Source: Halorussus caseinilyticus
Lineage (GTDB): Archaea; Halobacteriota; Halobacteria; Halobacteriales; Haladaptataceae
Assembly: GCF_029338395.1 (NCBI RefSeq)
Contig: NZ_CP119809.1
Location: 558,001-622,000, forward strand
Direction of reading: 5' to 3'
DNA: 64,000 bases
Shown: positions 13,619 through 35,346 of the stretch, piece by piece
Numbering within the stretch: position 1 is the first letter of the stretch
Layout of the letters: the number at the start of each line of letters is the position of its first letter
The notes under the pieces: model-generated
What the model was told of the DNA's origin: nothing
Database searches by the model: none
Seen by the model: only the letters and a program-made list of their open reading frames with translations
Position numbers and translations under genes: made by a program

Positions 13619-14878
13619 TCACGAGAAGTCCGCGAGGTTCGCTTGCAGTCCCGAGAGCATGTGGGACTTGCGCCGGAGGGCCGCGAGCGAGACCGGTAGC
13701 TGTGGCGCGATTTCTCGGACCGCGCCGTGGAACGTCTCGGCCTCGCCGTACTCGCCGTCGAAGGCGTTGCGGACGCTCTCGCGTATCTGCCAGACGCCGA
13801 CCGGTGCCCAGTAGTCGTCCGAGACCTCCCGGAGGACGAGGCACTTGGCCTGCCGCCCGACGGATTCGAGGTGTTCGAGGGCCGCGAGTCGGGAGGCGTA
13901 GTAGGCCCCGGCGGTCTCCTCGACGTACCCGGTCCGGCCCTCGTAGCCCTCGTGGGCGCTCGCCATCCACGTCTCGCCGTTGGGGTCCTGATTCCAGACG
14001 CTCCCCGGAGCCTTCATCTCCACGAGTTCGTACTCCCACTGGCCCGGCGTGAGGACGACCCAGTAGCGGTTGCCGAGGTACTCGTTGACCCACACCTGCG
14101 TCTCGTCCACGCTCGGGTTGGTCTGAACCTGTCCCCGGAGATACTGCCCGATAGTGTCGTCTACCGCGGTGATGGACCACCGCGTCGGGACGAGTCGGCG
14201 ATTCTGGCCGCGGCCGAGCGCGCCCGCCGAGAGGATGTCGTTGATTTCGTACACGTCGAACCCGCGACGGTAGAGGTAGGTCATCGCGCCTTGGGCTTGC
14301 CAGTCGTCGTCTTCGAGGGTCTTTTTCACCGGGCGCGGGACGTGTGGGTTCTCGGTCAGGTCCGCGGAGGTGGCGCGCGCCGAGGGACCGGTCGGGGTCG
14401 CAATCGCGTCCACGTCCACGTCGAGGTCCAGCGAGTCCGAGAGACCGATTTCCACGTCCACCGGCCGGTCGGCGATGGCGACCTCGCGCTGGGTGCCGAC
14501 GAACCCGTCCCACACGTCGTCCACGTTGTCCACGTTCGCGGCGTGGTTCGAGTTCAGCAGGCCGGTCCGGTACTGAAGCACGTTGTCGATGTCGAGGCCG
14601 CGCTCGTACCAGTCGCTACTCGTGGTGAACTCCGAGGCGCGGTCCTCCTCGCCGACGGGCGAGAGGATGCCCGTCGAGACGTTCGGGTAGTTCGACCGCC
14701 CGACGAACACCGACGGCGAGGTGCTACCGACCAGCGAGTCGCCCTGCGCGACCTCCGAGAAGCGGTCTTGGAAGTCGTCCACGTAGTCGAGAATCTCGTA
14801 GGACTTCTCCTCGGCGAGACGGCGCTTGCGGTCGGTCTCGTCCGGGCCGAGGCCCTCGATGTACTCGTCGAGACGCAT
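13619..14878 (-). CDS. nreA: DNA repair protein NreA
   Basis: A 419-residue protein, MRLDEYIEGLGPDETDRKRR, followed by blocks typical of the archaeal Nre family: GSTSPSVFVGRSNYPNVSTG, SDWYERGLDIDNVLQYRTGL and ARATSADLTENPHVPRPVKK. The last residues, QANLADFS, resemble a PCNA-interacting PIP box, as known for NreA. NreA acts in repair of DNA-damaging (mitomycin-type) lesions in haloarchaea. Its stop lies at the end of the minus strand, 310 bases from the TatA-like gene. A TTCAAAG box about 30 bases before the ATG is a likely own promoter. Confidence 0.85.
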   Translation of the reverse strand: MRLDEYIEGLGPDETDRKRRLAEEKSYEILDYVDDFQDRFSEVAQGDSLVGSTSPSVFVGRSNYPNVSTGILSPVGEEDRASEFTTSSDWYERGLDIDNVLQYRTGLLNSNHAANVDNVDDVWDGFVGTQREVAIADRPVDVEIGLSDSLDLDVDVDAIATPTGPSARATSADLTENPHVPRPVKKTLEDDDWQAQGAMTYLYRRGFDVYEINDILSAGALGRGQNRRLVPTRWSITAVDDTIGQYLRGQVQTNPSVDETQVWVNEYLGNRYWVVLTPGQWEYELVEMKAPGSVWNQDPNGETWMASAHEGYEGRTGYVEETAGAYYASRLAALEHLESVGRQAKCLVLREVSDDYWAPVGVWQIRESVRNAFDGEYGEAETFHGAVREIAPQLPVSLAALRRKSHMLSGLQANLADFS

Positions 14879-15022
14879 TCGTCGCTGTTTGGGACCCGAA
14901 CGCTTTGAACCTTACTCGCGCGACGTGCCAGCGGCTATCGGCGTGGCGTACAGGTGGTGCTGTCCCTCGCGGAGCGGTTGCACCGCCGATTTCGCTCGGC
15001 CGCCCCGCGGCAACTCTCAGTG

Positions 15023-15059
15023 CATGGGCCGGGTTCGTCCCGTCCTCGGATTTAAACTC
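15023..15059 (-). promoter_or_regulatory. orphan copy of the pilus-operon promoter element
   Basis: Read on the minus strand, TTTAAA is followed by GAGGACGGGACGAACC and ends at an ATG exactly 25 bases after TTTAAA. This is the arrangement found before the genes at 20699 and 30714. Here the ATG opens only a two-codon frame (ATG CAC TGA). It lies 145 bases upstream of nreA in the same direction. The gap 14879-15509 also holds the R9 repeat; no gene is supported in it. Confidence 0.6.
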
Positions 15060-15300
15060 TCGCATGGGGGTCCGGCGTGGAACTGGTTCGCGGAAGGCTC
15101 TAGCCTCCCCGGCGCGCGCTGGCGCGCGGTTCTGCGCGCGCCGACTCGTATCACGGAGTGGAGCGACTGAAGGCTCGGAAGTCGCCCGCCCGCATGGTTC
15201 GAGAGCAACGCCCTCGTCATCCCGAAAATCCCCTATTTTCGGAGACAGCGAAGCGAGCAGGACCGTCTTCCGGCGGACGGCGGCCGCGTCCGCGGTCGCC

Positions 15301-17043: not shown

Positions 17044-18780
17044 TCACGCCGCGAACCCTACCCCGACGAACCCCGCGAAGAACGACCCGACGGCCGACAG
17101 GAGCGCCACCCCGACCCGGTAGCCGACCAGCGCGCGGTCGAATCCTCGTTCCAGTCCGGTCGCCAGCGCGGTCAGAATCGCGGCCAACAGCAGGACGTAC
17201 CCGCCGACGGCGAGACCGAGCGCCGCAGTCGGAAGCGGTTCTCCGAGCGTCCCCCGAGCCATCCCGTCGGCGAGCGCAATCGTGGCCCCGCCGACCAGCG
17301 GACCGAACACCGCGGCGGTGTTCCGGAGCGTCCCGGTCACGCTTGCGAGTTCGCGCCGGGCCTCGCGCTCGACCCGCTGGAGGTCGTCCACGTGGTCGGC
17401 CATCGAGACCACCGCGCGTCCCGCCGGTCTCCCCTCGCGGGCGGCGACAGCGAGCAGTGCGGCCGCGCTCCGGGCCTGCTGACTCGGCACGTCGGCGAGC
17501 GCGCCGTGGTCGCCGAGAAACGCCTCCCGGACGCCGACCCGAAGCCGTCGCTGGACGCCCGCGGCCGCCGCCAGCGTCTCGCCGGTCCGACCCGCCACCT
17601 CGGGCGCGGCGTCCTCGACTGCGGCCTCTACCGACGCGCCGTCGCTCACCCGCCTGCCGACCAGATAGAGCGCGTCGGTCAGGTGGTTCTCCACTGCGCG
17701 GGCGTCGTCCCGGACCCGCTTGACCGGCCGAAATCGCACGACGAGACCGGCCCCCACCGCTCCGCCGACCACCGCGGGCCAGCGCGTCCATCCCGGAAAC
17801 GGCGCGGTGGCGACGACGGCGAGGACGCCCGCGCCAGCACCCGCAACGACGGTCGGCCAACGTCGGTCGGGCACCTCGGGATGCTCCCGAGACACCTCCG
17901 GCGGCGGGAACGCCGCGGGTCGCCGGACCAGCAACCACGCGCCGCCAGCGACCAGCACCGCGGGCAGACCGAGGTCGTAGAGCGCCACCAGCGCGGGAAC
18001 CGAGAGCGCGACGCCCGCAACCCGCGCCGCGGGCAGGACCGCGACCAGCGCGAGCGGAAGCAGGACGCCGAAGGCGTAGAGCGCCGTCGCGGGTCCCCGG
18101 ACCTCCTCGGCGAACTCGGCCATCCGGTCGCGCGTCCCGTCCAGCATCGCCGTCATCGCCCGGTCCAGCGTGGTCTCGCGCTCGCCCGCCGGGGCGTCGG
18201 CCGCCGACTCCACGAGCAGGACGGCCCGGCGGAGCGGCGGGTTCCACTCGGCCCACGCCGCGCCGAACGACGCCAGACCCGACTGCGGAGTCCCGGCGGC
18301 CCGCCGGACGTGTTCCCGGAGGTCGGCCGCGAGTCGTTCCTCCCCGCTGGCCGCGAACGCCGCCGCGCGCTCGCTCGCGGGTTCGACGCGCATCCGCAGG
18401 ACCGCCCGCGCGACGAGCGCGGGCGCGGCCCCGAGCGCGGCGGTCCGACGCGCAGTCGCCAGCGCGACCGGCCCACGGCGGGCGGCGTGGGAGACACCGC
18501 CCGCCAGCGCGAGGGCCGCAGTTGCGACCAGAAATCGGAGTCTGCCGGGCGCAATCGCCACCGCGAGAACTCCGGCGACTCCGACGACCCCGGCGGTCCC
18601 GTACCCCGCCCGAACCGTCGTCTCGGCGTCCACGTCGGCGTCGAGGTACGCGAGCGCCCGCCGGAGGTCGTCGCCGGTCTCGACCGACCGCGGCCAAAGT
18701 CGCGCGAGGCGGACGAGGAGTCCGGCGAGGAGACGGGGGAGCAGACCGGCGGCGCGACCGGACACCGGACTCGCCGTCAC
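17044..18780 (-). CDS. type II/IV secretion system F-type platform protein (TadC-like)
   Basis: A 578-residue protein from the GTG at 18780. It has two repeats of the T2SSF layout: a helical cytoplasmic part (SVETGDDLRRALAYLDADVD and, later, HLTDALYLVGRRVSDGASVE) followed by paired membrane helices, for example ALYAFGVLLPLALVAVLPAA and the C-terminal GGYVLLLAAILTALATGL. Platform proteins of this kind sit in the membrane and couple the ATPase to pilin assembly. The GTG overlaps the TGA of the ATPase (GTGA), giving tight coupling. The architecture resembles archaeal Tad/pilus systems. Confidence 0.8.
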   Translation of the reverse strand: MTASPVSGRAAGLLPRLLAGLLVRLARLWPRSVETGDDLRRALAYLDADVDAETTVRAGYGTAGVVGVAGVLAVAIAPGRLRFLVATAALALAGGVSHAARRGPVALATARRTAALGAAPALVARAVLRMRVEPASERAAAFAASGEERLAADLREHVRRAAGTPQSGLASFGAAWAEWNPPLRRAVLLVESAADAPAGERETTLDRAMTAMLDGTRDRMAEFAEEVRGPATALYAFGVLLPLALVAVLPAARVAGVALSVPALVALYDLGLPAVLVAGGAWLLVRRPAAFPPPEVSREHPEVPDRRWPTVVAGAGAGVLAVVATAPFPGWTRWPAVVGGAVGAGLVVRFRPVKRVRDDARAVENHLTDALYLVGRRVSDGASVEAAVEDAAPEVAGRTGETLAAAAGVQRRLRVGVREAFLGDHGALADVPSQQARSAAALLAVAAREGRPAGRAVVSMADHVDDLQRVEREARRELASVTGTLRNTAAVFGPLVGGATIALADGMARGTLGEPLPTAALGLAVGGYVLLLAAILTALATGLERGFDRALVGYRVGVALLSAVGSFFAGFVGVGFAA

Positions 18781-20699
18781 GCTTCCCTCCGGTCGGCGTA
18801 GGCCGACACCACCGCGTCCGGACTCGTCCGGCCCTCGCCTGCGAGGTCCGCGAGCAGGGTCTCGCGCTCCCGGAGGGCCGCGCGCACGTCGGCGTAGGAG
18901 TCGCCGGACTCTCCGAGTCCGGCGACGAGCGCGCTGTTCCCGCGGTCGATGCGGCCCGTGGCCGCGAGTCCGTCGTCTCGGAGGCGAAATAGGCTCTCGA
19001 ACCGGTCGCCGTCCACGATTTCCTCGACCGACTTCACCCGGCGGCGCTTGCCCGCGGGCGTCGAGACGGCTTCGAGCGTCACCACGAGGTCGGTCGCGGC
19101 GAACGACGAGGCGGGGACCCCGAGGTCCGAGACGACCCGCTCGCGGACGCCCGCGCCGCCGTCGCCGTGGATGGTGCCGAGAACCGCGTCGCCGCTCGCG
19201 CCGACGCGCATCGCCTCGTAGAGGACCGCGGCCTCCTCGCCGCGGACTTCGCCGACGACGAGTGCGCCTTCCCCCAGTCGGAGCGCGGTCCGGAGCGCGT
19301 CGGCGGGGTCGAGACCCGGCCCGTCGCCGGTCGTCGTCCGGAGCGGTTGCACGTCCCGACCGCCGGACTGGAGCGCCGAGACCGGGAGTTCGGGTGTGTC
19401 CTCGATGACGACGGTTCGGGTCGCCGCGGGGAGTTCCCAGCAGAGCGCGCTCAGCAGGGTGGTCTTGCCCGCGCCGCGGGGTCCTGCGACGAGTCCGGCC
19501 GCGGCGCGTTCGGCGGCGAGCGAGAGCAGGGCCGCCGCGGACGCCGGAAGGGTCCGGTTGGCGACGAGCGCCGGAAGGGTCCACGGCGTGGTGTCGTGTG
19601 CGCGGAACGCGAATCCCGGCCCGTCGCTCACGGGGTCGGTGACGCCCGCGACCCGGACTTCGCCTGCTCTCGTCTTCGCGGTCGCGTCGAGCGTCGGGGA
19701 CGCCCGTGAGAAGGCCCGGCCGCTGGAGCGCCGGAAGCGCGAGGCGAGGGCTTGCGCGCCCGAGTCGGTGAGGCGGACGTTGGTCCGCATGCGCTCGCCG
19801 TCGGCCGTCACGCGAATCGGGTTCTCGCCGACCGGCGCGGTGGCGAACACGTCCGAGACCGAAGAGTCGGCGAAGAAGTCCGCGAGGACGCCGTGGCCGC
19901 GGGTGTGCTTGCGGAGCGCCGCGGCGAGCGCTTCGACCGGTTCGTCGAGGGTGGGGCCGGAATCGGGGGCGAAGTCGGGGGCGGAATCGGCGTTCGCGTC
20001 CGCGACCCGCCGGACTGCCCTGCCGGGCGCGCGCTCGCCGGGGTCGATTTCACCGCGGGCGAGGAGTCGGTAGGCGTCGGCGAGAAGCGCGAGCGCCGAC
20101 TCCGAGAAGGTGTGTTCGACGGGTTCGAGGTGGTAGGTCCGGAGCGCGCGCTCGGTTTCGTAAACCCTGACCGTCGCGCCCGTGTCGAGTCGGCGCGTCT
20201 CGGCGAGGGTCGCGTCCGGCGGGGGTTCGGCGGCGACGCGGGCCTTCGCAATCGGCGGGCCGACGAAGGGGCGGAGCGCGTCGTCGTAGTCCTCGACGCG
20301 GCGAGCGCACTCGGCGAGTCCGGTCTCGGCCGCGATGTCGCCGACCGGTCCCGCGCGTCCGACCGCGGCGCGTGCGGCCCCGAGCGGGTCGCGTTCGGCG
20401 CGCCGGGCGAGCGTCCGGTCGTAGAACGCCGCGCGCTCGGCAAAGCGCCCGGCCGCGACGAGAAGCGCGGCCGACTCGCCCTCGTAGGCGCGTTCGAGGT
20501 GGTGGGTCCGGGTCACGACCGCTCGGGTCTCCCGGTCGGCCAAGGCGCTGACGGCCGTCCGACGGCAGGCCGGTTCGGTCGCCAAGTCGCCCGCGCCGGG
20601 GCAGTTTCCGGCGTCGAGCAGGAGGCGGTCGGCCTCGAAGGTGGGTTCGCAGGCGCAGTCGGGGTCCGAGTCGCGCAAGCGCGCCAGTGGATTTCGCAT
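18777..20699 (-). CDS. type II/IV secretion ATPase (VirB11/TadA-like)
   Basis: A 640-residue ATPase. Walker A is GPRGAGKTT (406-414), the Asp box is VIEDTPEL (431-438), Walker B is VVGEVRGEEA (481-490) and the His box is LGTIHGDGGAG (508-518). The first 400 residues form a large N-terminal domain with clustered Cys (CACEP, then GNCPG, then PACRR) that could bind metal. It should power assembly of pilin-like fibres at the cytoplasmic face. Its ATG is preceded by the shared leaderless element at 20700-20733, separating it from the two upstream genes. It overlaps the platform gene by four bases. Confidence 0.85.
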   Translation of the reverse strand: MRNPLARLRDSDPDCACEPTFEADRLLLDAGNCPGAGDLATEPACRRTAVSALADRETRAVVTRTHHLERAYEGESAALLVAAGRFAERAAFYDRTLARRAERDPLGAARAAVGRAGPVGDIAAETGLAECARRVEDYDDALRPFVGPPIAKARVAAEPPPDATLAETRRLDTGATVRVYETERALRTYHLEPVEHTFSESALALLADAYRLLARGEIDPGERAPGRAVRRVADANADSAPDFAPDSGPTLDEPVEALAAALRKHTRGHGVLADFFADSSVSDVFATAPVGENPIRVTADGERMRTNVRLTDSGAQALASRFRRSSGRAFSRASPTLDATAKTRAGEVRVAGVTDPVSDGPGFAFRAHDTTPWTLPALVANRTLPASAAALLSLAAERAAAGLVAGPRGAGKTTLLSALCWELPAATRTVVIEDTPELPVSALQSGGRDVQPLRTTTGDGPGLDPADALRTALRLGEGALVVGEVRGEEAAVLYEAMRVGASGDAVLGTIHGDGGAGVRERVVSDLGVPASSFAATDLVVTLEAVSTPAGKRRRVKSVEEIVDGDRFESLFRLRDDGLAATGRIDRGNSALVAGLGESGDSYADVRAALRERETLLADLAGEGRTSPDAVVSAYADRREA

Positions 20700-20733
20700 G
20701 GGCAGGGTTCGTTCCGTCCTCGGGTTTAAACCC
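20700..20733 (-). promoter_or_regulatory. leaderless promoter with conserved downstream block (pilus ATPase operon)
   Basis: On the minus strand TTTAAA (20725-20730) is followed by GAGGACGGAACGAACCC and the ATG at 20699, with 25 bases between TTTAAA and ATG. This spacing suits a TATA box of a leaderless gene. The block between box and start is nearly identical to those at 15.0 and 30.7 kb, which is more conserved than a plain core promoter needs. The rest of 20734-20884 is a GC-rich then AT-rich gap with no gene. Confidence 0.65.
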
Positions 20734-20884
20734 TCGCGCGAGAGGTCGCGGTCGGGGCCGTGTCGTCGCGCGGAGGGTTGCTGTGGCGCGCTCGCGCTCG
20801 TGGCCCGAGCGGTCAGTCACGATGAGACAAGAATTCCAACCATCAAGAATATCTATATATGGCTCAAAGATAGCAAGATATTGT

Positions 20885-21361
20885 CTAGATGGACACGATT
20901 ACTGTCCGACGCCCGCCCCGGCGGACCAGTCGGAGCGTCACCGTATAGCTCTCGCCGCCGCCGAGGACGAGCGCCCGGTCGTCGGTCGTGACTCGTCCGT
21001 CGCGGACGACGCGCAGGTCGGTCTCGGCGCGGCGGACGCGTCGGGGGTCGCCAGCGACCCGGAAGGCGAACACGTCGCTGACGGCGGTGTCGGCCGCGGT
21101 CGATTCGTTCCCCGGCAGTCCGCCGAGCGAGACGAACGCCAGCGGAGTCGCCGTCGGCGACTCCGCGGGAAACGACAGCGCGAGCGTCCGGCGCGCGCCG
21201 GGGGACTCCTCGTTGGCGAGCGTGGCCGCGGCCCTTTCGAGGCGGCCGAGTTCGCGCTCCGTGAGGCGCTCGGTCCGGGTCGCTCGCGCGTCTTCGAGCG
21301 CGGGCGTGACGGCCGCGACCAGCGCCGCCGCTAGCGCGACGGCGATGACCACCCGCAACAC
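20885..21361 (-). CDS. DUF7311-like protein, single N-terminal membrane helix
   Basis: A 158-residue protein, LRVVIAVALAAALVAAVTPA at the N-terminus (a pilin-like or anchor helix) and an outer domain with strands (ARRTLALSFPAESP, VSDVFAFRVAGDP, ESYTVTLRLVRRGGRRTVI). I recall this as DUF7311, a usual neighbour of the pilus ATPase in haloarchaea. The GTG start at 21361 overlaps the TAG of the upstream coiled-coil gene by one base. It may be a minor pilin or assembly factor; the fold resemblance is weak. Confidence 0.65.
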   Translation of the reverse strand: MLRVVIAVALAAALVAAVTPALEDARATRTERLTERELGRLERAAATLANEESPGARRTLALSFPAESPTATPLAFVSLGGLPGNESTAADTAVSDVFAFRVAGDPRRVRRAETDLRVVRDGRVTTDDRALVLGGGESYTVTLRLVRRGGRRTVIVSI

Positions 21362-21861
21362 TACAGCGACTCCGCGATGCGGGCGAGCAGGCCGGTGTCG
21401 GAATCGGCATCGGTGTCGGCCTCCGAATCGTCGGCGTCACCTTCGAAACCACCGTCGCCAGCGCGGAGGTCGCCGACTCCGGAATCGGTCTCCGGTCGGT
21501 CCGAGCGGAGTCGCCAGTCGCCGGAGTCGGTCGTTCGACTCGCTCGCTCGTCGGCGTCGTCCCGTCGCTCGCCCGAGTCGAGTTCCGCTTCGAGCGCCTC
21601 GGCCTTCGCAAGCGCGGCGTCGGCGCGACGCTCGACGGTCTCGTTGACCCCTCTGACGTTGCCGACGTAGCCCCGGAGCGCCTGTGTCGCGGCGTCGAGT
21701 TCGTCGAGGCGGTCCTCTACGTCGTCGAGTCGTGCGGTCAGTCGTTGGACTTCGCGGGTCAGTTCCGCGGCGTCCGAGAGGTCGGTCAGGTCGCTGTCGC
21801 CGTCGGTCAGTGCGCGCTCCACGGCGCGGAGTCGCTGGTCGAATCCATCTGGGCGGGACAT
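21361..21861 (-). CDS. DUF7310-like coiled-coil protein
   Basis: A 166-residue acidic protein from the ATG at 21861. Residues 1-95 form a long heptad-rich coiled coil (LTREVQRLTARLDDVEDRLD, then NETVERRADAALAKAEALEA). The C-terminal half is Asp/Ser-rich and disordered, ending DTGLLARIAESL. I recall DUF7310 for such proteins, which head the pilus ATPase cluster. ATTATAAAT about 25-33 bases before the ATG is a clear TATA box, so this is the first gene of the operon and is leaderless. Its role in the secretion machine is not known. Confidence 0.65.
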   Translation of the reverse strand: MSRPDGFDQRLRAVERALTDGDSDLTDLSDAAELTREVQRLTARLDDVEDRLDELDAATQALRGYVGNVRGVNETVERRADAALAKAEALEAELDSGERRDDADERASRTTDSGDWRLRSDRPETDSGVGDLRAGDGGFEGDADDSEADTDADSDTGLLARIAESL

Positions 21862-21952
21862 AGCACGAGTTGGTCCCGCCCTCACATTTATAATCTAGCC
21901 CGTGAAATGTATATATAAATACAATAAAATTTAATTAATGAAAAACATTATA

Positions 21953-22245: not shown

Positions 22246-22507
22246 GGCGTAACAACGAAGAACGAGGCTGTCAGACCGACTTCCGAATGTCGCGCCGTTG
22301 ACCCGCGCTTGTTACACAACCGGCGCTTTCGACGCGGCCGCGACCACTCCGACGTTCGCCGTCTACACGGAAACGGGCAAAATTCCGCGTCTGTCGCCGG
22401 AGTTCGACGGACGACTTCATTTTTGTCTACCCAGATACACCGACTGGGGGCACGACCGCGATTCCCGCGCCGGAAGGTTGATTAGCCGTCAATTCAACCC
22501 AACGCGC

Positions 22508-23587
22508 ATGAAAGTCGTCCTGATTGGTGTCGGACAGGCCGGGGGGAAACTCACCCAGCGACTGGCCGAGTACGACCAGCAGATGGGATTCGGCGCAGTA
22601 CAGGGAGCCATCGCGGTGAATTCGGCGAAAACCGACCTCCGAGAACTCGACCTCGATACCGTCCTCGTGGGTCAGGACCGCGTGAAGGGCCACGGCGTCG
22701 GCGGTGACAACGAACTCGGCGCTGAAGTGATGCAGAGTGACGCGACCGAGGTGATGGACGCTTTGGACGGTCGCATCACCGCCCAAGCCGAGGCCATCTT
22801 CGTGGTCGCCGGTCTCGGCGGTGGCACGGGGTCGGGCGGTGCGCCGGTCCTCGCGCACGAACTCAACCGCGTCTACGAGATTCCGGTGTACGGACTCGGC
22901 GTCCTGCCGGGCCGGGGCGAAGGCGCGATGTATCAGGCCAACGCCGGGCGCTCGCTCAAGACCCTCGTCCGAGAGGCCGACGCGACCCTCCTCATCGACA
23001 ACGACGCGTGGCACACCTCCGGCGAGAGCATGGGCGAGGCGTTCGACAAAATCAACCAGAACATCGCCCAGCGCGTCGGCCTACTCTTCGCCTCGGGCGA
23101 GGCGGTCGAAGGCGTCGGCGAGAGCGTCGTGGACTCGAGCGAGGTCATCAACACCCTCCGGTCGGGGGGCATCGCCACGCTCGGGTTCGCCAGCGCCGAG
23201 GCCAGCGAGGACGCCGAAGAGAACATCAACACCGTCACTTCCACGACTCGCCGCGCCCTCCTCAGCAACCTCAGCCTCCCGAACGCGGTTGAGGCCGACT
23301 CGGGACTGCTGGTCGTGGCCGGGCAACCCGAGACCATCCCGCGCAAGGGTGTCGAGCGCGCCCGGAAGTGGCTCGAAGAGGAGACGGACAGTCTACAGGT
23401 CCGCGGCGGGGACTTCCCACTGGACAGCGGTCGTCTCGCGTCGCTCGTCCTCCTCGGTGGCGTCGAACGCTCCGAGCGAATCGAGGAGTTCCTCGAACGC
23501 GCCAAGGAAGCGAGCAAGGAGGCCGAGAAACCGGAGCAAGACCCGGCCGAGCAGTTCCGAAGCGACGAACTGGAAGACCTGATTTAG
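22508..23587 (+). CDS. cetZ: CetZ-family tubulin/FtsZ-like protein
   Basis: A 359-residue GTPase of the archaeal CetZ group. The N-terminus is KVVLIGVGQAGGKLTQRL and the tubulin signature is GLGGGTGSGGAP (103-114). Also present are RVKGHGVGGDNELGAEVMQ and QANAGRSLKTLV, typical of CetZ and not of bacterial-type FtsZ. CetZ proteins control cell shape and motility through filament dynamics under the membrane. The last 30 residues are charged and disordered (KEASKEAEKPEQDPAEQF). The ATG at 22508 fits; a longer in-frame reading upstream is not family-like. Which CetZ paralogue this is cannot be told. Confidence 0.88.
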   Translation: MKVVLIGVGQAGGKLTQRLAEYDQQMGFGAVQGAIAVNSAKTDLRELDLDTVLVGQDRVKGHGVGGDNELGAEVMQSDATEVMDALDGRITAQAEAIFVVAGLGGGTGSGGAPVLAHELNRVYEIPVYGLGVLPGRGEGAMYQANAGRSLKTLVREADATLLIDNDAWHTSGESMGEAFDKINQNIAQRVGLLFASGEAVEGVGESVVDSSEVINTLRSGGIATLGFASAEASEDAEENINTVTSTTRRALLSNLSLPNAVEADSGLLVVAGQPETIPRKGVERARKWLEEETDSLQVRGGDFPLDSGRLASLVLLGGVERSERIEEFLERAKEASKEAEKPEQDPAEQFRSDELEDLI

Positions 23588-24151: not shown

Positions 24152-25117
24152 TTAGCTGTGGATGCCCATCGCCTCGATTTGTTCCTGATACCGGTTCCGG
24201 ATGGTGACTTCCGTCACCTGTGCGACATCGGCGACTTCGCGCTGGGTCTTCTTCTCGTTGCAGAGCAGGGAGGCCGCGTAGATGGCGGCGGCGGCGTATC
24301 CGGTCGGCGACTTGCCGGAGAGAAGCCCCTCCTCGGCCGTGGTCTCGATAATTTCGTTGGCCTTGGTCTGGACTTCTTCGCTGAGTTCGAGTTCAGAGCA
24401 GAATCGCGGGACGTACTTCTTGGGGTCCACCGGTTTCATCTCCAAGCCGAGTTCTTGGGAGATGTAGCGGTAGGTTCGCCCGATTTCCTTTCGTTCGACG
24501 CGCGATACTTCCGAGATTTCTTCGAGGCTTCGCGGGATGCCCTCCTTTCGACAGGCGGCGTAGAGCGCGGAGGTGGCGACGCCCTCGATGGAGCGTCCCC
24601 GAATCAAGTCCTCCTTGAGCGCGCGCCGATAGATGACGCTCGCCACCTCGCGGACCGACCGCGGGACGCCGAGTGCCGAGGCCATGCGGTCGATTTCACT
24701 GAGTGCGAACTGGAGGTTGCGCTCGCCCGCGTCCTTCGTCCGGATGCGCTCCTGCCACTTGCGCAGACGGTGCATCTGACTGCGCTTCTTCGAGGAGATG
24801 GACCGGCCGTAGGCGTCTTTGTCCTTCCAGTCGATAGTCGTCGTCAGGCCCTTGTCGTGCATCGTCTGGGTGGTCGGGGCACCGACGCGCGACTTCTCTT
24901 GGCGCTCCTGATGGTTGAACGCGCGCCACTCAGGACCGGGGTCTATCTGCTCCTCCTCGACGACGAGTCCGCAGTCTTCACACACGAGTTCCGCCCTGTC
25001 GGAACTCTTAACGAGGTTGTCAGAGTTACATTCGGGGCATTCCCGTACACCCTCTGACTCGTCCTCCGTTTGCTCCGCCTCGGCTTGGCGCTCCCGCTGG
25101 CGAGTGGACCGTGTCAT
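24152..25117 (-). CDS. tfb: transcription initiation factor TFB
   Basis: A 321-residue TFIIB homologue. The zinc ribbon uses CPEC (27-30) and CEDC (46-49). The B-finger/linker follows ([20 protein letters not shown]), then two cyclin repeats beginning about residues 130 and 220, for example [18 protein letters not shown] and [21 protein letters not shown] recruits RNA polymerase to TBP-bound TATA boxes. Haloarchaea carry several TFBs. The gene order tfb, rnhA, DUF7108, RosR-like, ppa looks like that around tfbG in Halobacterium as I recall it. The ATG at 25117 ([11 protein letters not shown]) is preferred over one at 25147. Confidence 0.9.
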
Positions 25118-25256
25118 CGCACTTTTATAGTAGTAGTGTCGAGGCACTTAAATCCTCGGCCGATAATGACTCCTTACTCGAAGGTCAGAAAACGGGACGC
25201 CCGTCCTTCGAACCACCATCGGAAAGCGTTTAAGCAGGTACCGAGGAAGTGACGCC

Positions 25257-30660: not shown

Positions 30661-30680
30661 GACCCCGAACCCCCCACGAA

Positions 30681-30713
30681 GGTTTAAATCCCGAGACGGG
30701 ACGAACCCGGTCC
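30681..30713 (+). promoter_or_regulatory. leaderless promoter with conserved downstream block (second pilus operon)
   Basis: TTTAAA at 30683-30688, then CGAGACGGGACGAACCC, then the ATG at 30714, with 25 bases between TTTAAA and ATG. It is nearly identical to the element at 20700-20733 on the other strand, at the same distance from the start. Confidence 0.65.
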
Positions 30714-31178
30714 ATGTTCGACGCACCAGTCGAGACGTGGTATCTCTGGGTCGGCCTCGCCGTCGTCAGCACCGCCGCGGTGGGTCTCGCGGCGACCCTC
30801 CCGCGCGCACCCCCGCCGGACGCCGCGAGCGCCGCCGGAACCGTCGATTCCGTCGCGGCGAGCGCTCACCCGACGACCGGCGTCCACCCGCTGTCGGCCG
30901 ACGCCGCGAGAGTCGGCCCGTACCGAATCTGGCTTCGGGACGACGGCGCGACAGGCCACGCGACGTTGGCCTACGGTCCCGTCACCCCGGTCCGGCGCGA
31001 CACCGCGCTCTGGGACGTTCTCCGGGGAACGCCGCCCGAACGCGCCTTCGGAACCCCCGCGGACTTCCGGCGGGTCGCGGCCGACGCGCGCGACCGGACT
31101 CCAGCGTGGCGCTCGCGCGAGGCGCTGACCGTCCGGCGGGTGGTGTGGGAGGGCGTCGATGTCACGCTGGTCGGATAG
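30714..31178 (+). CDS. DUF7283-like membrane-anchored protein of the pilus locus
   Basis: A 154-residue protein. One N-terminal membrane helix (WYLWVGLAVVSTAAVGLAAT) is followed by a Pro-rich linker and an outside domain (VGPYRIWLRDDGATGHATLA). I recall this as DUF7283, first gene of a four-gene haloarchaeal set linked to the Tad-like ATPase. The N-terminal helix would fit a pilin-like or minor subunit. It starts just after the shared promoter element and overlaps the next gene by 20 bases. Function inferred from context. Confidence 0.6.
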   Translation: MFDAPVETWYLWVGLAVVSTAAVGLAATLPRAPPPDAASAAGTVDSVAASAHPTTGVHPLSADAARVGPYRIWLRDDGATGHATLAYGPVTPVRRDTALWDVLRGTPPERAFGTPADFRRVAADARDRTPAWRSREALTVRRVVWEGVDVTLVG

Positions 31179-31551
31179 CCCGAGAGCGCAGGTCGAACCG
31201 GTGGCGGCACTGGTCGCCGTCTTCGCGGTCGGGGTCGCCCTCACGACCTACGCTGGCGTCCTCGACGCCACCATCCCGACGCCCGACCGGAATCTCGCGG
31301 ACCCGACCGTCGAACGCGCCGAGCGCACCCTCGGCGACCCCGGAGTCGCAGACCCCCAAGCACTCGCCGCCGGTCTGCGCGCCGGACCCGACGGTTACGA
31401 CCTGAACCTCACGCTCGAAGCGACCGGCCGGACGTGGCACGCCGGACCCACTCCGCCGCCGAACGCCGATACTGCCGCACTCGCGGTGAGCGTCCGCCTC
31501 GGTCCGGGTCGGATGCGACCCGGCCGACTCCGCGCGGAGGTGTGGGCGTGA
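31159..31551 (+). CDS. DUF7285-like pilin-type membrane protein
   Basis: A 130-residue protein. The start, SPRAQVEPVAALVAVFAVGV, looks like a class III (archaeal pilin/Tad) processing region: charged head, then a hydrophobic helix LTTYAGVL. The rest is a strand-rich outside domain (YDLNLTLEATGRTWHAGPT). I recall it as DUF7285. It overlaps the 30714 gene by 20 bases and the next by four (GTGA), so it belongs in one translation-coupled operon. It is likely a minor pilin; no biochemical evidence is visible. Confidence 0.6.
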   Translation: MSRWSDSPRAQVEPVAALVAVFAVGVALTTYAGVLDATIPTPDRNLADPTVERAERTLGDPGVADPQALAAGLRAGPDGYDLNLTLEATGRTWHAGPTPPPNADTAALAVSVRLGPGRMRPGRLRAEVWA

Positions 31552-32105
31552 GAGCCATCAGCACCGTCCTCGACGTTTCGCTCTGTCTCCTGCTGGTCTC
31601 GGCGAGCGCCGTCACCCTCGCTACTACGCCGTCCGCTACCGCGCCGTCCGCCATCGCGACACTCGCCGACGAGTCGAGCGCGACTGTCGGCCCGGACACC
31701 GCCGACGAGATTTCGGAACTGCTGGTGACGAGTACCGCCCGCGTGACCTACGACGGCGGGACGCGGACCGTCCACGACACTCTCGCGGGACTGCTCGCCA
31801 GCGCCGCACTCGCGGACGCTCGGCCGACCCCCCGAACCGACTTCGTTCGGGCGGTCACGACCAGCGTCGGCCGGGCCGTCCGACGCCCGGCGGTTCGACG
31901 CGTTGCTTCCGGGGGTGCCGCGCCCGGACGCGCCGCGGTCGGCGTGCAGGTCGTCGCGCGCCGAACTCCGACGAACTCGACTCCCACCGCCGACTCCGAC
32001 GGCCGGGTCGTCGCGGGCGACACCCCGCCGCCGGACGCCGACGTTCACGCGGCCACCCTCGAAGTCCGTCGGGTCAGACTCACCGTCAGGACGTGGGTGG
32101 CGTGA
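31548..32105 (+). CDS. DUF7284-like pilin-type membrane protein
   Basis: A 185-residue protein from the GTG at 31548. It starts RAISTVLDVSLCLLLVSASA, again a charged residue before a hydrophobic helix as in pilin-like secretion substrates. The outside part is Ala/Thr-rich with a Pro loop (TPTADSDGRVVAGDTPPPDA) and ends RRVRLTVRTWVA. I recall DUF7284. Overlaps of four bases with both neighbours (GTGA) show tight coupling. It is probably a structural subunit of the pilus-like machine. Confidence 0.6.
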   Translation: MRAISTVLDVSLCLLLVSASAVTLATTPSATAPSAIATLADESSATVGPDTADEISELLVTSTARVTYDGGTRTVHDTLAGLLASAALADARPTPRTDFVRAVTTSVGRAVRRPAVRRVASGGAAPGRAAVGVQVVARRTPTNSTPTADSDGRVVAGDTPPPDADVHAATLEVRRVRLTVRTWVA

Positions 32106-35100
32106 ACTTCGCGGAAGACCGCCGGGCGCGGGTCCCCTTCGCCCTCGTCGGCGTCCTCCTGTTGGTCGGGAGCGCGGGCCTCAGCGCAACCCTCGCTGGC
32201 GGTCCGGCCCCCACGACCGACGAGTCGGTCGGGGTCGCCGTGGACCGGGCCACCGCCGCCACGGACACCGCACTCCGCGGTGCAGTCGCTCGCGCCGGAC
32301 GACGGGCCGCCGCCGCGCCAGTCACCGACCCCGCGAACACCACCGCGGGACGCGTCCTGAACGACTCGACTCCCTTCCGGGACTCGCTCCGCGTCCGAAT
32401 CTATCTCGCGGCCCGGAGCGCCCTCGGCGAGGTGAGCGTCCGGTCCGGGAGTAACCCCGGACCGGACGCGGGCAGTCCGAAAGCGCCCGGTCCGGCGGCG
32501 TCCGGGCCTCGGTCTCGCTCCCGCCGGTTCGGAACGCCTCGGACCTCCGGGCGGCCAAGCGCCGGGTCGAAGTCGAACCCGCGGGCGAGGGCGACGGAAC
32601 CGAAGCGAGCGCGGGTCTCCGGGTCCGAATCGAGAACGTCACGCTCACCGCGACCCGAGGGGGCCGCGTCGTCGAGCGCGAGCGATTCTCGCCCGAACTG
32701 GTCGTGGCGACCCCCGCGCTTGCGCTCCACGAGCGAGTCTCCGGGTTCGAGTCGCGCCTGAACCGCGACCCTCTCGCGCCGGGTCTGGGCCGCCGACTCA
32801 CTGCCCGCCTCTACGCCGTGGCGTGGGCGCGGGGAGTCGCCCAGTACGGCGGCGCACCGGTCCAGAACGTGGTGGCGAACCGCCACGTCGAACTCGCTAC
32901 CAACGGCGCACTCCTGCGCGAACAGCGGGCCGCCTTCGGCCGGAGCGACCTCCGCGGTCGGCGCGCGCTCAGGTGGGCGACCGCCAGAGTCGGCGCGACG
33001 GACCTGCTCACGGCGGCGAACGCCCGCCACGGGACGGCCCGGACCGACCAACTGCTGGCCGCCGCGAAGCAGTACCAGCGCGAGCATCCGATGCCCGGCG
33101 GCGTGGCGAGCGACCGCGACCCTCGCCGCCTCCTCCGGGTCGGCGTCGAGCGGACCGCGGACCGCGCCTTCGCCGATGTCGTCGCTGGCGAGAACGGGAC
33201 CGGTCTCGCCGAACTCCTGCGCTCGGCCTACACCGCCAACGCGCGCCTCGTGGCCGCGGTCCGGAGAGTCGGCCGGGAGAGCGACCCCCGTCCCGCGCCG
33301 GAGTCGCCCGGCCCGAACTGGACCCTTCAGTCGAGCGAGGTCCGGACGACGACTGCGGTCGAATCCGGGACCGGACCGTCGCCGGGGACGCCGGAGAAAT
33401 GGCACCTGCTCGGTGCCGAGTCGCGCCGAGTCGTCCAGACCCACGCGCTGGTCGCCGAATGGACTCGGAGGGGAGAGGTCGGCGACGGCGAGACTCGGAG
33501 CAACGAGACTCGCCGGACCGTCCGGCGGTGGACCGAGACGTTCGCGGTGGGCGTCGGGGTCGCGGGCGACCACGACTCGACGCCGGGTCTCGCCCCTCCT
33601 CGACCGGTCTCGCGAATCCACGAGCGCGGCGGGGCGCTCGGTGGGCCGAACCTGCGGGACCTGCCCGAGCGAGCGACCGAGCAGTTGGTCGAGTCGCGCG
33701 GCGGGTTCGACGCGCTGGCCCGGCGAGCGGTCACCGGGACGCTGGACGCCCGGCCCGAGCGAGTCGCGGGTCGGCGGCCCGCGGACCTCCGGTCGTGGGT
33801 CTACCGGGACCTCGCGGGTCTCCGGGAACGCGTCCGGAACGTCTCGATGACGGTCACTCGTCGCCGGGCGGTCGGCGGTGAACCGCCGACCGCCGAACTC
33901 GCGCGGACGCTTCGGCGTCGGCACGCGGAACTGGTCGGCGCGCCTTCTCGGTACGATGGGGTCGCCGACCGCGCTCGGGTCGCGGCGCGGGCGGCGTACC
34001 TCGACCGCGTGGCGACTCGGTTGGCGGCGCGGGCCGACCGCGCGAACGCGACCCGAACCGGCCTCCGCCGGGCGCTGGCCGACGCTGGCGGGTCGCTCGA
34101 CCGAACGCGCCGGATTCTGCGCGCTCGGACGACGCCCGAGACCCCGCCGCCGCGACCGATGCCCGCCGACGGACCCGGCCGCGCGGTCAACCTGAGCGTG
34201 GCGGGCGCGCCGCCCTACCTCACGCTGGCGGCGCTGGACCACGAGCAGGTGGCCGCGATACCCGAGGGAAACGAGAGCTACCCCCTCGCGGCCCGGAACC
34301 GGAACGTCTTCGCGCTTCCGTACGGTGACGCCGCGGAGACGGTCGCGTCGGCCGTGGTCGGGGGCGGACCATCGGAGCGGACCGACCTCCGGACCGCGGC
34401 GCTGGCTCTCCGGGCCGCGAATCGGACGCTGGCCGAGTCGGGGAACCGGACGCTCACCGAGTCGGGGAACCGGACGCTCGCGGGGTCCGAGCGCCGAGAC
34501 CTCGCCCGGCGTCGTGACGCCCTTCAGTCTGCGCTCGCGGGGTCCGAGCGCCGAGACCTCGCCCGGCGTCGTGACGCCCTTCAGTCTGCGCTCGCGGGGT
34601 CGATGCGCGAGGCCCGAGAGCGACTGGTCGCGGAGTTGGCGACAGCGGGGTTCGACCGGACCGAGGCAGAGCGCCGGGCGGCAGTCACGTCGGGACTCGC
34701 GCGGTGGAACACGACCGCCGGGCGCGCGCTGGCGGTGGCGAACGGGTCGGCGGCGAAAGTTGTCGCCGCGGCGGTGGTCCGCGGTCGGCCCGCGCTCGGG
34801 CGACCGGTCTCGCGCGACTGGGTGCGACTCCGGACCGAGTTGGCCGTCGAGTCGGTGCGCCAGCGCGTTGCCGGTCCGCCGCGGCCGGTGGTGAATCGGA
34901 CGGCGACTGCGACCCGAAGCGTGGCGGAGACCGCGCTCAAGCAGGCGGTCACGTCGGGTCTCGGCAACGCGACGGAGGCGGCGAACCGGCGGTGGTTCGG
35001 CGAGGCACTCGGCGCGATTCCGGCGGGTCTGCCGGTCGCGCCGGTTCCGGGGTACTGGTACGCGACGGTCAACGTCTGGACGGTCGAGGTCCGCGGGCAG

Positions 35101-35346
35101 TACGCCCGGTTCGCGGTCGGCGCACCTCGGGGACCGCCCGACGAGTCGATTTCCTACGTCCGGGAGGAGGCGACGGTGCGACTGGACTGGGACGGCGACG
35201 GCGACCGGGAGCGGATTGGACGCACGACCCCGGTCTCGTTCGAGACGGAGACGGCCATCGCGGTGGTCGTCCCGCCCGGTCCGCCGGGCGTCGGCGACCG
35301 GGACGGGAACCGCGACGAGTCCTCGCCGGGATGGTCGGCGGGGTGA
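32102..35346 (+). pseudogene. DUF7286-like large surface protein, frameshifted
   Basis: Read as one gene from the GTG at 32102, this is a protein of about 1080 residues with an N-terminal membrane helix (VPFALVGVLLLVGSAGLSAT) and a long outside region rich in Arg, Ala and Thr, ending in a beta-rich domain and a disordered tail. The frame breaks near 32452-32462. Upstream frame codons run to GEVSVRSGSNP; downstream frame codons resume at TGRGQSESARSGGVRASVSL, and both sides read as real protein. A single-base loss, most likely in the CCCC run near 32455, explains it. It could be a true mutation, an assembly error or, less likely, programmed slippage. I recall DUF7286. It closes the four-gene operon. 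Confidence 0.6.
34477..34590 (+). repeat. perfect 57-base tandem duplication in the DUF7286-like gene
   Basis: 34477-34533 and 34534-34590 are identical and encode LAGSERRDLARRRDALQSA twice in frame. Just upstream a shorter in-frame repeat of GNRTL-ESGNRTL type occurs. Identity at every base points to a recent slippage event. Confidence 0.85.

Follow-up and report, generated by a model that had tools for sequence, protein, structure and literature searches.

Why should two sets of pilus-like genes that lie apart and on opposite strands begin behind nearly the same short sequence, and why should a third copy of it stand before a frame of only two codons? The question is raised by a 64-kb window of the Halorussus caseinilyticus genome (the whole stretch of DNA that was analysed, C1:558001-622000); the genome surveyed around it comprises 4.39 Mb in 5 contigs. 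At three sites in the window TTTAAA is followed, after exactly 25 nt, by ATG: at 20699 and 15025 on the minus strand and at 30714 on the plus strand. The block reads TTTAAACCCGAGGACGGAACGAACCCTGCCCATG at 20699, TTTAAATCCCGAGACGGGACGAACCCGGTCCATG at 30714 and TTTAAATCCGAGGACGGGACGAACCCGGCCCATG at 15025, where the ATG is followed by CAC TGA. This arrangement, pointed out by an earlier sequence-only reading, was confirmed at all three sites: the joint TATA-block-RTG pattern, with up to three mismatches, matched three times in the 64 kb and never in 100 shuffles. The 13-mer alone, with three mismatches, was not above chance (75 observed vs. 82.7 expected), so that TATA box, spacing and block have to be taken together.

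The pilus-like genes and their order in other genera

The block promoter on the minus strand (20700..20737; BRE, TTTAAA, block and leaderless ATG at 20699; E=7.4e-13 with our sequence model of the block, R1; matrix score 25.7) precedes a TadA/CpaF-like T2SSE secretion ATPase (18777..20699, minus strand; PF00437, 8.4e-18; TIGR03819), whose relatives are the archaeal T2SS ATPase, CpaF and FlaI. Next to it lies a TadC/platform-like membrane protein (17044..18801, minus strand, start approximate), labelled by its position and its conserved adjacency to TadA; it had no Pfam or NCBIfam match, and homologous frames adjoin TadA throughout the order. Two genes upstream of the ATPase had been overlooked in the sequence-only reading, namely its partner DUF7311 (20885..21361, minus strand; PF23993, 9.3e-32) and the coiled-coil gene DUF7310 (21361..21861, minus strand; family match), which has a leaderless start at 21861 and a weaker block promoter of its own (21862..21899, minus strand; TTATAAATGTGAGGGCGGGACCAACTCGTGCT-ATG; R1 E=0.059; own-genus matrix 26.1). 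With the RNA-gene matrix described below, this DUF7310 block is strong at orthologs in other genera and weaker in the window copy.

On the plus strand, the block promoter at 30676..30713 (matrix score 28.3; leaderless ATG at 30714) opens an operon of DUF7283 (30714..31178; PF23954, 8.6e-52), DUF7285 (31159..31551; 5.2e-36), DUF7284 (31434..32105; 4.1e-19) and DUF7286 (32093..35346; family match), all on that strand, the last being one gene in two frames. The change of frame near 32450 is a frameshift that belongs either to the organism or to the assembly. In the prepilin class III signal test, this set matched the DUF7283/DUF7285/DUF7284/DUF7286 families only; a Pilin_N domain was found in another block-driven gene (L075). 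Of the earlier description, a Tad-like ATPase/platform pair and a pilin-like set of four genes, the ATPase is indeed T2SSE/TadA-like, the platform is without a family match and the set is DUF7283-DUF7285-DUF7284-DUF7286.

The two half-operons are inverted in this genome and about 10 kb apart, with a CetZ gene (22298-23587, plus strand) and a TFB gene (24152-25147, minus strand) between them, and TadA and DUF7283 lie on opposite strands also in four other genomes (G003, G006, G014 and G016). Such a layout would suit the earlier suggestion that a single rearrangement took the block with it. In a fuller version of this idea, one duplication or rearrangement split an operon, carried its promoter along and left the third copy as a relic. 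We consider this extremely unlikely, because in 14 of 15 clusters from other genera TadC stands directly before DUF7283, within a contiguous order of CetZ (divergent), DUF7310, (DUF7311), TadA, TadC-like, DUF7283 and DUF7285, and in these clusters DUF7283 is already preceded by a block of its own, as is TadA in most. DUF7283 is also present in Haloferax volcanii. In several Halorussus genomes, too, the halves lie side by side (L101, L105 and L110), the genus having both contiguous and split arrangements, and what the third copy opens is a conserved RNA. Since the contiguous clusters have a separate DUF7283 block, the split is secondary and not the source of the second block; in this genome it is a later inversion or move. 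The divergent CetZ-DUF7310 pair is kept in nearly all the other-genus clusters examined, which indicates that this neighbourhood is ancient.

The third copy starts a pseudoknot RNA gene

The promoter at 15026..15063 (minus strand; R1 E=1.6e-14; matrix 27.5), once regarded as an orphan opening a two-codon frame, is the top-scoring block site of the genome and starts a conserved pseudoknot RNA gene of about 81 nt (14945..15025, minus strand; ATGCACTGAGAG...CACCACCTGTACGCC; covariance model R3, E=3.8e-11), with helices P1 CGCGGGGCGG/CCGCTCCGCG and P2 GGTGC/GCACC. The start of the RNA and the start codon of an mRNA are equidistant from the TATA box, which is why the two-codon frame is best read as the 5' end of the RNA. 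A relic promoter or a short peptide at 15025 was rejected: with the RNA model this RNA is recovered throughout the order, and one copy (L153) has GTGACCTAA in place of the GTGACCTGA with which these RNAs begin (ATGCACTGA in the window copy).

Non-coding block sites fall into two classes, and the window RNA belongs to class 2. Class-2 RNAs are about 80-100 nt long and form an H-type pseudoknot, which a script recovered in 17 of 19 sequences, P1 having about 8-12 bp and P2 about 5-9 bp; in L014 and L146 it picked other helices. RNAalifold did not recover P1 from the class-2 alignment (pseudoknot and misalignment), and we therefore used a strand-swap test, in which the 63 sequences paired better with their own strands than with strands of other RNAs; the observed mean was reached in 0 of 10000 permutations for P1 and 0 of 10000 for P2. 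The family occurs in 123 of 243 genomes and 35 of 77 genera of the order, and a single genome may have as many as 18 copies. When viral contigs were searched by pattern there was one match, unconfirmed by the RNA model.

The second class, class 3, starts with GGACG and ends with CTGAGCC, is essentially confined to Halorussus and reaches 14 copies (examples are L052, L083, L086 and L088, e.g. G000:C1:1794103-1794196). In its helices all 180 pair cells are standard and five pairs are changed on both sides. When copies were located by the RNA models alone, the block was present at 17 of 17 class-2 and 16 of 20 class-3 copies. Both classes resemble Rfam families in being short, conserved, structured RNAs; unlike these, neither has an Rfam match at E<=1, and the class-2 family is apparently undescribed.

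Class-2 genes usually face the 3' end of a neighbour such as gatB in convergent orientation, which argues that they are free-standing RNAs and not leaders. That the RNA could be the leader of a downstream gene was mostly rejected on these grounds, and in the window the downstream NreA-type gene on the same strand (13619..14878, minus) is preceded by a separate TTCAAA, 25 nt from its ATG, and hence need not depend on the block. A class-2 RNA lies beside gatB (a label that rests on inspection of the protein sequence) in seven of the copies examined. In several Halorussus species (L198, L203, L204, L207, L208 and L210) it is convergent at the gatB 3' end; this suggests an orthologous RNA gene, which may overlap the end of the gatB mRNA.

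The number of copies, up to 18 in one genome, might also be taken as a sign that a mobile or repeated element, made up of RNA gene and promoter, spread and seeded the motif. It is very unlikely that this accounts for the block: class-2 copies sit at orthologous places, as at gatB, with differing sequences and preserved pairing, and the starts of pilus genes and of a NucS paralog have the block without any RNA.

Distribution of the block and the genes behind it

The exact form occurs three times in the genome, each time inside the window. In the genome search that the sequence-only reading had proposed, relaxing the form to three mismatches gave 14 sites vs. none for a reversed control, model R1 found 24 sites at E<0.01, and we estimate that this Halorussus genome holds about 20 copies. 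R1 matches were present in 18 of 18 Halorussus genomes, 17 of them at E<=1e-4; at that threshold the other 10 genomes listed for the family had none, and eight further genomes elsewhere in the order had one or two weak matches each. Two weak matches outside the family (G104 and G070) directly precede a NucS paralog. The exact block, scanned for in named genomes, was seen only in Halorussus species and in one Halobacteriales MAG. The Halorussus consensus is roughly CGRRnnCGGGACSAAC and drifts by genus. No description of the motif or of the RNA was found in the literature, our search being confined to open-licence papers.

At the coding sites in Halorussus, ATG or GTG is always at the same distance, or 1 nt off. 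The genes are the TadA-like ATPase, the DUF7283 operon, DUF7310, an archaeal pilin and a second T2SSE ATPase. Further ones are a DUF7382 pilin-like protein and, divergent from it, a HerA-like ATPase (DUF87 match, 5.4e-5), a NucS paralog with a Zn-ribbon, a secreted PLD-domain nuclease-type protein, a Cas4/PD-(D/E)XK-like protein, TctA, DUF7509, DUF7857 and a protein that we take to be DUF6735-like. A pilus ATPase and DNA-processing genes have one promoter signature in common, as would be expected of a competence or DNA-exchange regulon; TctA, the DUF6735-like protein and DUF7509 are not obvious fits to a role in DNA uptake. A block common upstream of unrelated genes had been named as evidence against the sequence-only reading. 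This applies only in part: other genes are indeed preceded by the block, but the set is restricted and recurrent.

In Halorussus, as in most of the other genera looked at, DUF7382 and the HerA-like gene diverge from each other behind separate blocks (L001, G000:C1:89638-89780). Most searched haloarchaeal genomes have two NucS-like genes (L273-L302), and the block stands at the more divergent one, whose Halorussus copy is the one in which the Zn-ribbon was seen.

A matrix from RNA genes finds the starts of protein genes

We built a matrix exclusively from class-2 RNAs of genera other than Halorussus, taking the 38 nt that precede each of 44 such genes and aligning them on the predicted RNA starts; its conserved positions include C at -37, the TATA box and -23..-9. 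Applied to the 64-kb window, it picked exactly the three sites at 30714 (plus strand), 20699 and 15025 (minus strand). In 15 of 15 loci from eight other genera, the DUF7283 start ranked first of about 6770 positions with the full matrix, and with the block part alone, without TATA, it ranked first in 9 of 15 and at most fifth in 13 of 15. In the 6.6-kb stretches upstream, the only matches of 13 or more were the starts of DUF7283, the TadA-like gene and DUF7310. The NucS paralog start ranked first in 9 of 11 scored loci, and the DUF7382 start third or better in 13 of 16, the divergent HerA-like start being matched in most as well. Part of the class-3 RNA copies and a few of the homologs scored low (L195, L196 and L267).

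The obvious objection is that the block is an ordinary haloarchaeal core promoter, shared without meaning. Most haloarchaeal genes are leaderless, with a TATA box near -27, a BRE and a -10 WW element (PMC4983044), and the A at -10 and C at -1 of our matrix overlap these general features. The general promoter, a TATA/BRE leaderless one likewise, nevertheless covers parts of the full matrix only and lacks the -23..-12 block. There are moreover only about 24 R1 sites at E<0.01 in the 4.4-Mb genome; the 55.8 kb around the canonical NucS gene contained no matrix match of 14 or more with a start codon; leaderless promoters from outside the set mostly scored 7.5 or less (about 17 controls, among them one unassigned frame, L077, at 16.2) vs. 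15-34 for genes of the set; and scoring of the block part without TATA still works. The canonical NucS gene is a poor control for start sites, its start falling outside the scanned range in most loci, and these loci therefore served only as background DNA. Taken together, these results make an ordinary core promoter a highly improbable explanation.

In many genera, then, a limited set of transcripts has in common an element at fixed spacing between the TATA box and the start. The matrix tests lend good, order-wide support to the proposal that conservation here exceeds what a core promoter needs, and to a common regulator that would join the two halves.

A proposed regulon

We conclude that the block is very probably the promoter/operator element of a dedicated haloarchaeal regulon, found across the order, of pilus genes, DNA-handling genes and pseudoknot RNAs, for which gene content suggests a possible role in DNA uptake or exchange. 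Acting as an operator or as an extension of the promoter, between about -25 and -7, it would be recognised by a single dedicated factor, which might be an alternative TFB or a regulator bound immediately downstream of TBP/TFB. Transcription would start at the RTG or at the RNA 5' end, and the gene set would be switched together, whether up or down. The predicted output would be leaderless mRNAs of DUF7310-DUF7311, TadA, TadC-like, DUF7283-7286, DUF7382/HerA-like and the NucS paralog, together with multicopy pseudoknot RNA genes transcribed from the same element, the supposed orphan of the window among them.

What such a programme serves can be suggested only tentatively. Its gene content is compatible with DNA uptake or exchange via a pilus-like machine, which we regard as possible rather than probable; natural DNA uptake has been reported in Haloferax mediterranei (PMC6759562). 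That the pseudoknot RNAs act as regulators in the programme is somewhat doubtful, and we would be similarly hesitant to assume that many haloarchaea have a dedicated DNA-uptake or exchange regulon in which a special TFB or regulator governs a pilus, a HerA-like ATPase, a NucS paralog and new regulatory RNAs. The regulon could also serve surface adhesion, phosphate/DNA nutrition or defence, with the RNAs regulating that programme instead, and this alternative, too, we regard as possible rather than probable. The PLD-nuclease, HerA-like and Cas4-like proteins match defence-linked families (DrmC, HerA_antiphage and cas4), but all three matches are far below curated cut-offs, and it is pilus genes and the NucS paralog that recur in the set across genera.

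Returning to the DNA-exchange reading, comparable systems are known. The Ups/Ced system of Sulfolobales combines pili and HerA/VirB4-type ATPases that are induced by DNA damage (PMC11868833). The likeness lies in having pilus genes and a HerA-type ATPase in one set, the latter recognised here by its DUF87 match; in contrast to Ups/Ced, our block is downstream of TATA and small RNAs belong to the set. Bacterial competence regulons similarly place a ComGA/TadA-related secretion/pilus ATPase and nucleases under one promoter signature, whereas the present set has archaeal promoters and pseudoknot RNAs, and neither ComEC nor DprA was seen in it. In Haloferax volcanii, CsmR binds TATCA(N4)TGATA adjoining the TATA box of archaellum and chemotaxis genes (PMC13286277). 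A regulator site next to TATA is the shared trait; the motif and the targets differ, and on inspection the CsmR site was absent from all three blocks.

For the control of DNA uptake in haloarchaea, and of most of their pilus clusters, a promoter signature that is found in several families and links pilus genes, DNA handling and an apparently uncatalogued RNA offers a direct way to look for the regulator and for the condition that induces the set. The position of the element, at fixed spacing between TATA and start, is also relevant to the question of how archaeal promoters are made gene-specific in the absence of upstream operators. As a lead, the TFB gene between the two half-operons is a candidate reader of the block.
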